A DNA stretch of 49,995 bases. It comes from Methanomassiliicoccaceae archaeon (lineage in GTDB: Archaea > Thermoplasmatota > Thermoplasmata > Methanomassiliicoccales > Methanomethylophilaceae). The stretch is taken from assembly GCA_016281925.1 (NCBI GenBank), contig JAEEJP010000006.1, positions 1 to 49,995 of the forward strand. Direction: 5' to 3'. This document shows positions 1 through 49,995 of the stretch, piece after piece. A model generated the notes under the pieces. It searched no databases. It worked only from the letters and a program-made list of their open reading frames with translations, and was not told where the DNA came from. A program made the translations under genes and the position numbers. The first letter of the stretch is position 1, and every line of letters begins with the position of its first letter.

Positions 1-50
1 TCCTCTGCGGTTTTGAGGATCTCCTGAGTGACGTTTGCTAATGCTGCCAT
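1..50 (-). CDS. atpE: A/V-type ATP synthase subunit E, N-terminal fragment
   Basis: Only the first 16 codons lie in the window; the gene continues past the left edge. The start MAALANVTQEILKTAE matches the N-terminus of archaeal ATP synthase subunit E, a coiled-coil peripheral stalk protein that pairs with subunit H. The ATG at 50 follows an AGAGGT ribosome binding site, nearly the same as the one before the next gene upstream. It is the fourth gene of an H-I-K-E operon, an order typical of methanogen ATP synthases. Identification rests on these few residues plus the operon order. Confidence 0.75.
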   Translation of the reverse strand, partial: MAALANVTQEILKTAE

Positions 51-70
51 GAGATTACCTCTTGGCGGGC

Positions 71-298
71 TCACATCACGAAGATAGCAAGGATGGAAAT
101 AACCAGTCCGAAGATGACGATGGTCTCAGGAAGAACCATGAAAATCATGGATTTACCGAAAAGGCTTGCGTCCTCGGTGATGGCGCCGACTGCGGCGGCT
201 CCGACATTTCCTTCCGCGATACCTGCTCCGAGACCGGTAAGTCCGACTGCAAGTCCTGCTCCAACTGCGATGAGTCCTGCTGCTTCTGCTGCTGCCAT
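71..298 (-). CDS. atpK: A/V-type ATP synthase proteolipid subunit K (c ring)
   Basis: A 75-residue membrane protein with two hydrophobic hairpin helices rich in Gly and Ala. The second helix carries the motif VLPETIVIF, whose Glu58 is the expected ion-carrying carboxylate. The length is that of a single-hairpin c subunit, not a duplicated one. It forms the rotor ring and passes ions to subunit I. An AGAGGT site precedes the ATG, and it lies between subunits I and E in the same operon. The stop is TGA. Confidence 0.93.
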   Translation of the reverse strand: MAAAEAAGLIAVGAGLAVGLTGLGAGIAEGNVGAAAVGAITEDASLFGKSMIFMVLPETIVIFGLVISILAIFVM

Positions 299-311
299 TT
301 ATGATACCTCT

Positions 312-46087: not shown

Positions 46088-46125
46088 TATTATTATATTA
46101 TAGTTGCTTACGGAAGAAGGATACA

Positions 46126-48036
46126 ATGGGCGATGAAAGCGTCGAAGGCGCCCCCGAAGAATACAATGCGGACAGCATAGTCGCGCTGAAGGGGTTGGAA
46201 GCGGTCAGGAAAAGGCCGGGGATGTACATAGGCTCCACGGATTCCCGCGGTCTCCACCATATGGTCTATGAGGTCGTGGACAACGGCATAGACGAAGTCA
46301 TGGCCGGGTTTGCCACCGAAGTGGATGTCGCCATCAATGAAGACGGGTCCATCACCGTGACGGACGACGGCAGGGGAATCCCCACCGGAATCAACCACAA
46401 AGAAGGCAAATCCGCGCTGGAGCTGTGCCTCACCGACCTGCATGCCGGCGGCAAGTTCGACCAGAACAGCTACAAGGTCTCTGGAGGGCTGCACGGGGTC
46501 GGAGTCTCCGTCGTGAACGCGCTGTCTTCCAGGCTGATCGCGACTGTGTGCCGCGAAGGGAAGGTCTTCAGGCAGTCGTACAAGATAGGCATCCCCGACG
46601 GCCCTGTGGAGGTCATCGGCGATTCGGACATGCACGGCACATAGATCACGTTCTGGCCGGACGCAGAGATGTTCGAGACCGTAGAATTCGATTACACAAC
46701 GCTTCAGAACAGGTTCCGCAACCAGGCGTTCCTCAACAGCGAGGCCACGGTAAACTTCGAGGACAAGCGCACCGGCAGGAAGGAGAGGTTCCATTACGAC
46801 GGCGGGGTCTCCGAGTTCGTCCAGTACCTCAACAGGTCCAAGACGCCGATACACCCGGCTCCGATGCGCTTCACCGGCGAAAGGAACGGAGTCAACATCG
46901 ACATTGCCTTGCAATACACCGACGGATACAACGAGGAGATCGACTCTTTCGTGAACACAATCTACACGCCAGAAGGAGGCACCCATCTCACCGGGTTCAG
47001 GACCGCCCTGACGAAGTGCATCAACGATTACGGCAAGACCAACGGAATCCTCAAGGACATAACCCTCGAAGGGTCGGACGTCCGCGAGGGCCTCACGGCG
47101 ATCGTCAGCATCAAGATGGCCGAGCCCCAGTTCGAGGGCCAGACCAAAGCCAAGCTGGGGAGCAGCGTCGCCCAAGGCGCGGTTTCGGGCCTGATGAACG
47201 AGAAGCTGAGCGAATACCTCCTGGAGAACCCTTCCGTGGCCCAGATCGTGCTCAAGAAGGCCATATCCGCTTACGAGGGCAGGGAGGCCGCCAGGAAAGC
47301 CAGGGACGCCACCAGAAGGAAGAGCGTGCTGGAGACCACCAGCCTCCCCGGGAAGCTCGCCGACTGCTCGGAAAGGGATCCGTCCAAGTGCGAGCTGTAC
47401 ATCGTGGAGGGGGACTCCGCAGGCGGGAGCGCCAAGCAGGGCAGGGACCGCGCGTTCCAGGCCATACTCCCCATCAGAGGGAAGATCCTCAACGTCGAGA
47501 AGACCAGGCCGGACAGGCTCCTGGACCACGAAGAGATCAAGAACCTCGCCATAGCCATCGGAGGCGGCATAGGGAAGGATTTCGACGTCTCCAAGATACG
47601 CTACCACAACGTCGTCATTATGACCGATGCGGATGTGGACGGAGCGCACATATGCACGCTTCTCCTGACGCTGTTCTACAGGCAGATGAGGCCTCTGATA
47701 GACGGCGGCCACGTATATATCGCCATGCCGCCGCTGTACAGGGTGTACAAAGGCAAGAAACAGATCTACGCATACAACGACGACGAGATGTCCGCCGCCA
47801 TGGCCGAGCTGGGCCCCGGATGCAACGTGTCGAGGTACAAAGGTCTGGGAGAGATGAATCCCCAGCAGCTCTGGGACACCACCATGGATCCCGACACCAG
47901 GCTGATGAAGAAGGTCACCGTGGAGGACAGCATGATCGCCGACCAGCTGTTCTCGGTCCTCATGGGGGACGACGTGGAGCCCAGGAGGGAATTCATAGTG
48001 GAGCATGCCCACGAAGTCATGAACCTGGATGTGTGA
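46126..48036 (+). CDS. gyrB: DNA gyrase subunit B with in-frame TAG
   Basis: A 636-residue ATPase subunit if TAG at 46642-46644 is read. The N-terminal GHKL domain ([15 protein letters not shown] [36 protein letters not shown]) ends at SDMHGT; the next codon is [20 protein letters not shown] follows in the same frame, as in ordinary gyrase B. The transducer and TOPRIM domains ([29 protein letters not shown]) and the C-terminal QLWDTTMDP tail are intact. gyrA starts 4 bp downstream. ATG 46126 follows GGAAGAAGG. Gyrase is essential and no second copy is visible, so readthrough is likely. Confidence 0.9.
46642..46644 (+). other. In-frame amber codon in gyrB, candidate pyrrolysine
   Basis: TAG at codon 173, between HGT and ITFWPD, in the loop before the strand carrying the conserved FWP. 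Both flanks align to gyrase B without a gap or shift. Confidence 0.85.
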
Positions 48037-48040
48037 TATA

Positions 48041-49995
48041 ATGGACGGCGAGAAAAAAGTCATAATCCAGTCCGTCGAGAAGGAGATGCAGCGCTCCTAC
48101 ATCGACTACTCAATGAGCGTCATAGTGGGGAGGGCTCTCCCCGACGTGCGCGACGGCCTGAAGCCGGTGCATAGGAAGATCCTGTTCGCCATGGACAACC
48201 TGGGCCTGACGTACAACCGCCCGCACAAGAAGTCCGCGACCGTGGTGGGAGAGGTCCTCGGTAAGTACCATCCCCACGGGGATTCCGCGGCCTACGAAGC
48301 GATGGTGAGGATGGCGCAGCCCTTCTCCCTGAGATACCCCCTGGTAGACGGCCAGGGCAACTTCGGATCGGTCGACGGGGATTCCGCGGCCGCCATGCGT
48401 TACACCGAAGCCAGGATGTCCAAGATGGCCAGCGATCTCCTCGCCGACATCGACAAGGAGACGGTGGACATGGTCGACAACTACGACGGCTCGCTCAAGG
48501 AGCCCTCGGTGCTGCCTTCAAAGTTCCCCAACCTACTGGTGAACGGGTCGGACGGGATAGCCGTGGGAATGGCGACCAAGATGCCGCCCCACAACCTCGG
48601 CGAGGTCTGCGACGCCATATCATATACCATAGACAACAGGGAAGCGTCTCTGGACGACCTCATGCAGTTCATCAAGGGCCCGGATTTCCCCACCGGAGGC
48701 ACCATCTACGGCATCGGCGGGATCCGCTCCGCCTACGAGACCGGCCGCGGCAGGATGAAGGTCAGGGCCAACACCCACGTCGAAGACATGGGGAACAGCA
48801 AGGAGCGCATCATCGTCGACGAGATACCCTACCAGGTGAACAAATCGGCGCTGATCGAGCAGATCGCGGACCGCGTCAAGACCAAGGAGATCGAAGGGAT
48901 CACCGATCTGCGCGACGAATCCGACAGGCACGGCATGAGGATAGTGGTGGAGCTGCACAAGGACGCCCTGTCTGCGGTGGTGCTGGAGAATCTGTTCAAG
49001 AAGACCAATATGGAGATCACGTACGGGATCATCAACATCGCCCTGGTGGGCAACAAGCCGTCCGTCCTCTCCCTGAAGGAGCTGATACTCCAGTACATCT
49101 CCCACAGGAAGTCGGTGGTCCGCCGCAGAACCGAGTACGATCTGAAGCAGGCGGCCAAGAGATACCACATCCTCGAGGGCCTGATGGCGGCCATCAACAT
49201 GCTGGACGCGACCATCGCGCTGATCAGGTCGTCGGACAGCGCCGAGGAGGCCAACGCCGGGCTGCAGACCCTGCTCTCCATAGACGAGGAGCAGGCGAAG
49301 GCGATCCTAGACATGAGGCTCCAGAAGCTCACCGGCCTGGAGCTGGACTCCATAAGGGCCGAATACGTGGATCTGGGGCTGAAGATGGCCGATCTGCGCG
49401 ACATACTGGCCAACGAATCCAGGATAGACGCCATAATCAAGGGCGAGCTGAAGGAGATGAAGGACGCATACGGAGACGAGCGCCGCACCGTCATAGACCC
49501 GAATCCGCTGGACAGCGACGAGGAGGACCTCATCCCGAGGCAGAAGGTGGTCATCACCATCTCCCGCGACGATTACGTCAAGAGAATCCCGCTGAGCACC
49601 TACAGGCAGCAGAGGCGCGGCGGCACCGGCCTGACCGGGATGCAGACCAAGGAGGAGGACCACGTGGACTCCATGTTCGTCATGTCCTCCCACGACTACA
49701 TCCTGTTCATAACCGACCGCGGCCGCATGCACTGGCTCAAGGGATACCGCGTCCCGGAGGGCAGCAGGCAGTCCAAGGGCAAGCCCCTGGTCAATCTGAT
49801 CCCCGATCTGGAGGAGGGGGAGACCGTAGTCAGCACCGTCTGCACCGCCGACTTCCCCGACGACAGGTTCATAGTGTTCTGCACGAAGAAAGGCAGGGTC
49901 AAGAAGACCGCGCTTTCGGCGTACAAGAACGTCAGGTCCAGAGGGATCAAGGCCATAGTGCTGAAGACCTCCGAGGATTCCGAATCCGAGGACGA
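48041..49995 (+). CDS. gyrA: DNA gyrase subunit A (runs off the right edge)
   Basis: The first 651 codons are present. The breakage-reunion domain has [19 protein letters not shown] and the catalytic Tyr in [10 protein letters not shown]. The coiled coil and tower follow. The C-terminal beta-pinwheel begins with the GyrA box QRRGGTG at about 49608, which marks gyrase rather than topoisomerase IV. With GyrB it introduces negative supercoils. Gyrase in an archaeon points to the Thermoplasmata/Euryarchaeota lineages that took it from bacteria. Confidence 0.96.

Follow-up and report, generated by a model that had tools for sequence, protein, structure and literature searches.

The arginine codon CGA almost certainly serves as a stop codon in the archaeal genus UBA71 of the GTDB taxonomy, which corresponds to Candidatus Methanoprimaticola (PMC8727293). 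This reading, drawn from comparisons of DNA sequence, goes back to a stretch of 49,995 nucleotides (contig JAEEJP010000006.1 of assembly GCA_016281925.1), hereafter the window, in which a first-pass annotation had noted that CGA acts like a stop; the pattern holds well beyond the window and also in the relatives G028 and G014. Here and below, G denotes a genome, C a contig and L a DNA stretch used in the analysis. The window is contig C57 of genome G000 (the window genome), a 122-contig draft of 1.96 Mb that is 85.9% complete and 2.4% contaminated. In the named collection, the closest relatives of its release factor aRF1 come from metagenome-assembled genomes of the Methanomethylophilaceae including UBA71 itself, mostly from ruminant and other guts, and we infer that the window genome belongs to this genus.

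CGA at gene ends and inside genes

Homology tests covered 716,830 bases (717 kb) of the window genome, with G033, a member of the same family but of another genus, as family outgroup (800 kb of its 1.49 Mb). Among 196 gene ends defined by G033 homologues, 146 were TGA, 34 CGA, 14 TAA and 2 TAG. The CGA ends lay at most five codons from the end of the homologue in 31 of 34 cases, and at those same 34 genes the outgroup has standard stops (TGA 24, TAA 9, TAG 1). A second tally, which also used G028 genes as queries and was restricted to ends no more than six codons from the expectation, gave TGA 156, CGA 36, TAA 8 and TAG 1 (n = 201). When open reading frames of at least 400 codons were collected from 434 kb with CGA, TAA, TGA and TAG all taken as stops, 83 ended in TGA, 18 in CGA and 5 in TAA, while 5 reached the ends of their stretches.

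The position of CGA sets it apart from sense codons. In 23 of 28 genes, CGA taken as a stop lay no more than three codons away from where the end was expected. The controls of this test were nine sense codons, in addition to TAG, and the sense codons scatter more around the expected ends: the counts were 5/43 for CGC, 5/17 for CGG, 1/11 for CGT, 13/47 for AGA, 9/52 for GGA, 5/22 for TGG and 5/41 for ATA, with 4/8 and 1/2 for the rare codons CAA and TTA. Inside genes the codon is scarce. Across 66,163 aligned codons of 223 matched genes, CGA occurred 13 times here versus 71 times in the outgroup G033. With 15 codons trimmed from each end and matches of at least 50% identity, the interior counts in the window genome were TGA 1, TAA 2, CGA 4 and TAG 6 (42,103 codons), and G028 had a single interior CGA in 22,580 codons. 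Counted by relative position, as had been suggested, CGA is found at ends, and its interior scarcity is like that of TAA, TGA and TAG.

Use of CGA at gene ends differs strongly within the genus. In G028 it is the commonest stop (CGA 62 and TGA 55 of 122 gene ends), in G014 it ends 6 of 126 genes, and in a subgroup referred to as clade B only 1 of 56 (sampled from roughly 150 kb in G030, G007 and G013 and from small loci of G003, G009, G012, G019, G023 and G025). Stops also swap between orthologous ends: in 38 triples of outgroup, own and G028 stops, 8 were TGA/TGA/CGA and 7 TAA/TGA/CGA. CGA is nearly absent inside clade B genes as well as at their ends. An artefact of sequencing, assembly or contamination might be suspected from the state of the window genome, which is fragmented, incomplete and slightly contaminated (see above). 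We give it next to no credence, as CGA ends recur in G014 and G028 and a CGA at codon 78 of the aRF1 gene (see below) in 26 genomes, including G007 and G030; this recurrence in independently assembled genomes also disposes of the systematic sequence error listed in the first-pass annotation.

The sequence downstream of CGA was considered with regard to ribosome stalling, i.e., the possibility that CGA is unassigned or very slowly read and that stalled ribosomes are rescued, without recognition of CGA by aRF1. In favor of stalling, clade B is nearly free of CGA inside genes and at ends, and in the window genome a back-up TAA or TGA occurs within the next three codons more often after CGA (7/36) than after TGA (10/156). 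However, stalling should lead to avoidance of the codon at gene ends as well. In G028, CGA is nevertheless the most frequent stop, and back-up stops are not enriched there (5/62 after CGA versus 6/55 after TGA). Moreover, conservation of a CGA in its own gene suggests that aRF1 is the factor sensing this codon, and we regard stalling as unlikely. With respect to the base following the stop (+4), C follows CGA stops less often than TGA stops in G028 (3/62 versus 13/55, p 0.006); the corresponding difference in the window genome was not significant (3/36 versus 22/156, p 0.43).

The aRF1 gene and tRNA-Arg(UCG)

The aRF1 gene of the genus holds a sole in-frame CGA, at codon 78, a position that is mostly arginine in relatives. 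It is CGA in 26 of the 27 genus genomes read (G006 via contig L178). None of the other arginine codons of the genus aRF1 genes is CGA (48 rows representing 27 distinct proteins, with duplicates between collections), while the outgroup genes contain 99 CGA codons in 62 rows. The context is constant as well: wherever data exist in CGA rows, codon 77 is GCT or TCT (25/25) and codon 79 is CTN (25/25), giving NCT CGA CTN, although elsewhere in the gene GCT makes up only about 6% of alanine and TCT about 5% of serine codons. The frame runs on in phase past codon 78, with no +1 frameshift. The exception is G028, in which codon 78 is CGC and the aRF1 gene itself ends in CGA. In an aRF1 tree built without codon 78, the genus forms one clade (100/99), as does clade B (100/99), while the remaining members are not resolved as a clade. 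G028 is placed among the CGA-bearing rows, next to G011 at moderate support (86/96), and its CGC is therefore most simply a loss of CGA; the tree tool flags the base composition of G028 as unusual.

Judging from this arrangement, codon 78 probably provides a feedback on aRF1: full-length factor would be made only when this CGA is read as arginine, i.e., when aRF1 is scarce, which would amount to negative feedback. Alternatively, codon 78 could be CGA for an unrelated cause, such as an RNA element or simple descent, without any feedback. Inheritance would fit with the CGA found at codon 78 in 7 of 62 outgroup rows. In contrast, 26 of 27 genomes keep this codon where CGA is otherwise purged, codon 77 is always NCT, and the one genome lacking it, G028, makes the strongest use of CGA stops among the three genomes with CGA ends. 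We consider an unrelated cause doubtful.

Inspection of aRF1, likewise proposed in the first-pass annotation, revealed in addition to codon 78 a methionine at position 65 in all 45 genus rows with data, which aligns to Arg68 of human eRF1. Factors of the eRF1 type read UAA, UAG and UGA, and in simulations of the eRF1 Arg68Ala exchange the penalty on C at the first position drops from about 6 to 1–2 kcal/mol (PMC5681627 for both). Among the outgroups, 44 of 62 rows carry Met or Leu at position 65, 12 carry Arg, 5 Asn and 1 Gln; the family outgroups read have Met65, with Leu in two. The rows with Asn or Gln belong to another lineage of the Methanomassiliicoccales (L189, L192, L193, L196, L197, L198). 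The NIKS and YxCxxxF motifs are retained in the genus, except for NIRS in G001 and G006 (L066, L124, L178), corresponding to Lys63 to Arg in human numbering.

The tRNA that would compete for the codon, tRNA-Arg(UCG), was detected in 27 of 31 genomes, and its anticodon arm is defective in all 27. Outside clade B, every copy (19/19) carries an A.A or C.A mismatch at 31–39. In clade B, all copies (8/8) have C33, and in 7 of 8 the 27–43 pair is missing as well. U33 is nearly universal in tRNAs. Correspondingly, 12 of 12 distinct outgroup copies of tRNA-Arg(UCG) have U33 and a paired 31–39, and among 101 other distinct tRNAs used as controls, U33 was present in 100 and 31–39 paired in 101. The single control exception was tRNA-Gly(GCC) of G028 with C33 (L395). 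With such an arm, tRNA-Arg(UCG) presumably works poorly. The window genome retains the tRNA, with its broken anticodon-stem pair, at G000:C39:13195, and the first-pass idea of a CGA left unassigned after tRNA loss does not hold there, although it may fit G028.

Four genomes, G013, G016, G017 and G028 (66–88% complete), yielded no tRNA-Arg(UCG). The absence suggests a real loss only in G028, because both internal CGAs are also gone there. The search of G028 scored 150 of 2842 first-look candidates; none was this tRNA, and among the matches listed there was no G028 match without a mismatch. A look-alike at G028:C36:48397 was not called as a tRNA by ARAGORN and resembles coding sequence. G014 and G028 have an equal G+C content (0.602 in the stretches examined) and differ about tenfold in CGA ends (6/126 versus 62/122); G014 keeps the tRNA, while none was found in G028. 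This contrast, which involves two genomes only, is in line with tRNA competition.

The second internal CGA stands at codon 3 of the ATP-synthase subunit gene atpH, a conserved arginine position (2668..2670 of the window, minus strand). Fifteen of the 16 loci read outside clade B have CGA here and the sixteenth, in G028, has CGT, whereas all eight clade B loci have CGG. The first-pass annotation had taken this codon as an argument against a strict stop; it is indeed in frame, but it represents a conserved exception rather than counter-evidence. Provided that CGA terminates translation, the majority of genus members not in clade B would depend on read-through to make this subunit. The DNA between the probable ribosome-binding site and codon 7, both included, is unusually conserved across the genus (L350–L367) and may be a regulatory element. 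Codon 78 of aRF1 and codon 3 of atpH are the only internal CGAs that we accept as real, and both look programmed.

Taken on sequence grounds, aRF1 probably reads CGA as a stop in competition with the weakened tRNA-Arg(UCG), with both U and C tolerated as first base (YGA). Since the residue corresponding to Arg68, which steadies the first-base loop in eRF1, is Met in the genus and in the family outgroups read (Leu in two), a weak tolerance of C could be older and family-wide. The genus-specific step would then be the decay of the anticodon arm, by which termination would come to prevail at CGA. The crippled tRNA would probably be retained as long as aRF1 and atpH need it, and G028 could represent the situation after both internal CGAs were lost, with no detectable tRNA-Arg(UCG) and CGA as main stop. 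Of the four mechanisms listed in the first-pass annotation, a release factor accepting CGA fits best.

The rival among these is C-to-U editing, by which UGA would be made from genomic CGA and read by an ordinary release factor. CGA and TGA do interchange at orthologous ends, as noted above. Phrases like "CGA stop codon" were met in our literature search only in three papers on plant mitochondrial genomes, in which they would reflect C-to-U editing. However, the three bases right after CGA stops vary (no wider motif search was made), and editing alone would explain neither the decay of tRNA-Arg(UCG) by two routes nor the scarcity of CGA inside clade B genes, although clade B hardly uses CGA stops. 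Editing is compatible with the DNA and explains less than the release factor does; we deem it quite improbable.

In total, we favor as the likely course a genus-wide change of CGA from arginine to stop by a tug-of-war between a relaxed aRF1 and a decaying tRNA, with the balance sensed by the CGA of the aRF1 gene, TAG mostly sense, and the change, which would be the first of this type outside organelles, running through successive stages. At the same strength, and jointly with this course, the genus would display avoidance of CGA in clade B, a minor or intermediate stop in G014 and the window genome, and a main stop without programmed CGAs in G028.

Several observations weigh against this explanation or limit it. 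Clade B avoids CGA rather than using it as a stop. Met65 alone is insufficient, because family outgroups with Met65 use CGA as sense, and none of the genus-diagnostic aRF1 residues (17, 76, 250, 270, 338, 380) lies inside NIKS or YxCxxxF. The outgroup rows with CGA at codon 78, mentioned above, count here too, and no stimulating RNA structure was predicted 3' of codon 78 in the one sequence analyzed (z = −0.18). The atpH codon stands in a different context (AGC CGA ACT). As for the tRNA, about 3.5 absences among the 31 genomes would be expected from incompleteness alone (summed missing fractions), codon 78 is still CGA in G013 and G016 though neither yielded a tRNA-Arg(UCG), and synteny did not settle the loss in G028, as gene order breaks beside tRNA-Arg(GCG). 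Finally, part of the interior CGAs was discarded by eye from translations.

Individual CGA and TAG sites

All 12 terminal CGA sites of the first-pass annotation are in frame at the positions it gave, on both strands. On the plus strand, CGA ends a tiaS-like gene (8542..8544, TAA directly after), a tatD-like gene (16563..16565), a metallo-beta-lactamase-fold gene (17327..17329, TAA three codons downstream), a flavin reductase-like gene (22685..22687), a DUF4143 ATPase-like gene (26250..26252, TGA three codons downstream), a phosphatase-like gene (27845..27847, TGA directly after), a tsr3-like gene (28360..28362, a second CGA directly after) and an Rpn-family gene (30388..30390, frame 29401–30390). 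On the minus strand, the genes concerned are priS-like (14444..14446), which the standard code leaves open for about 350 further codons, ogg-like (19687..19689), pdxT-like (20532..20534) and EamA-like (28352..28354, TGA directly after). The trinucleotide as such is not scarce in the window, with 1168 and 1098 occurrences of CGA on the two strands and 1107 and 1117 of CGC.

Our list of 41 window genes was derived from 43 frames by dropping the antisense frame 16613–17389, joining gyrB and the Rpn-family gene each across a TAG, and splitting 18325–20487; atpH and the last 2 kb lie outside it. These genes end in CGA 12, TGA 27 and TAA 2 times. The 31 TGA ends of the first-pass annotation rest on a slightly different gene list. 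None of the 41 genes has an internal CGA, given an MCM start at 30825 and an EamA start after codon 19, both set by eye.

A broader count over 105,120 aligned codons gave 17 CGAs. Ten of these stood over 12 codons away from both ends, and among the ten only aRF1 codon 78 was accepted on inspection by eye. In L244, L261, L051 (10393, 10420) and the MCM and EamA genes of the window, the frame opens before the likely start, and in the UMP kinase-like gene a GTG start right after the CGA (L045:13299) is likely. The CGAs in L051 (1213, 1264), L247 and L251 lie in antisense or poor alignments, with L251:756 and L251:1299 less certain, and CGAs at final alignment codons are the stops themselves. Of the 16 CGAs in 46,707 codons of G014, most belong to frames of L227 and L234 that are antisense or lie upstream, and the 11 in 41,814 codons of G028 comprise 9 at final codons and 2 in alignments to L388. 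G028 also shows a low-identity cluster of CGAs in L387 that contains TGA and TAG as well. At L058:12188 (plus strand), a CGA separates a NifH-like from a NifD-like part, which are fused into a single protein in the outgroup G033; it may split the gene and end the first of the two, or belong to a read-through fusion.

TAG accounts for one of the 201 gene ends, yet occurs 15 times in the 105,120 aligned codons, 7 times facing Glu and 3 times facing Tyr. In the window, in-frame TAGs on the plus strand lie inside gyrB (46642..46644), where TAG is probably sense (pyrrolysine), and inside the Rpn-family gene (30067..30069), where it is probably sense as well. The window genome has a PylS match, and a 2025 paper in Science reportedly describes archaea in which every TAG is read as pyrrolysine.

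Known systems and consequences

The bacterial gene prfB, encoding RF2, is regulated by a programmed frameshift at an in-frame UGA. As in aRF1, a release factor gene holds near its 5' end the codon at which its own product terminates, followed by a C. In aRF1, however, the frame is kept and CGA would be read through as arginine rather than bypassed by a +1 frameshift, and the factor is an archaeal one of the eRF1 type. By analogy, aRF1 may work alike, but it is not a member of the prfB-type frameshift class.

Changes from sense to stop have been described for organelles. In Sphaeropleales mitochondria, UCA has become a stop codon (PMC6821328), a former sense codon terminating there as here, accompanied by changes in mtRF1a. 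Those cases concern small organelle genomes and mtRF1a, whereas here an archaeal chromosome, an eRF1-type factor and an arginine codon one first base away from UGA are involved. UUA and UCA stops in peDinoflagellate plastids, reported in 2025 and termed the first outside mitochondria, are likewise ascribed to altered reading by the release factor, but in an organelle, at other codons and by RF1/RF2-type factors; the accessible portion of the report does not mention a self-regulating codon (PMC12574857). Regarding arginine CGN codons, bacterial reassignments of CGA and CGG are known, in which the codon also changes its meaning but comes to encode another amino acid (Shulgina and Eddy, 2021, PMC8629427, accessible part). 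Across 2,309 species of archaea, the same Codetta screen lists no sense codon reassigned to a different amino acid, as far as that part goes. Codetta assigns amino acids and was unable to call a stop; a sense codon turned stop would presumably come out as uninferred. A literature search that left out most subscription papers and all bioRxiv preprints returned no description of CGA acting as an archaeal stop, and the accessible parts of PMC5011839 (on ISO4-H5), PMC9499178 and PMC13092985 make no mention of it.

With a cellular genome of roughly 2 Mb, a factor of the eRF1 type and a genus that holds intermediate stages, the way stop codons evolve could be put to a direct test. In practical terms, gene calls under the standard code would overrun CGA stops, and public protein sequences of methanogens from the rumen and the human gut may bear false tails.

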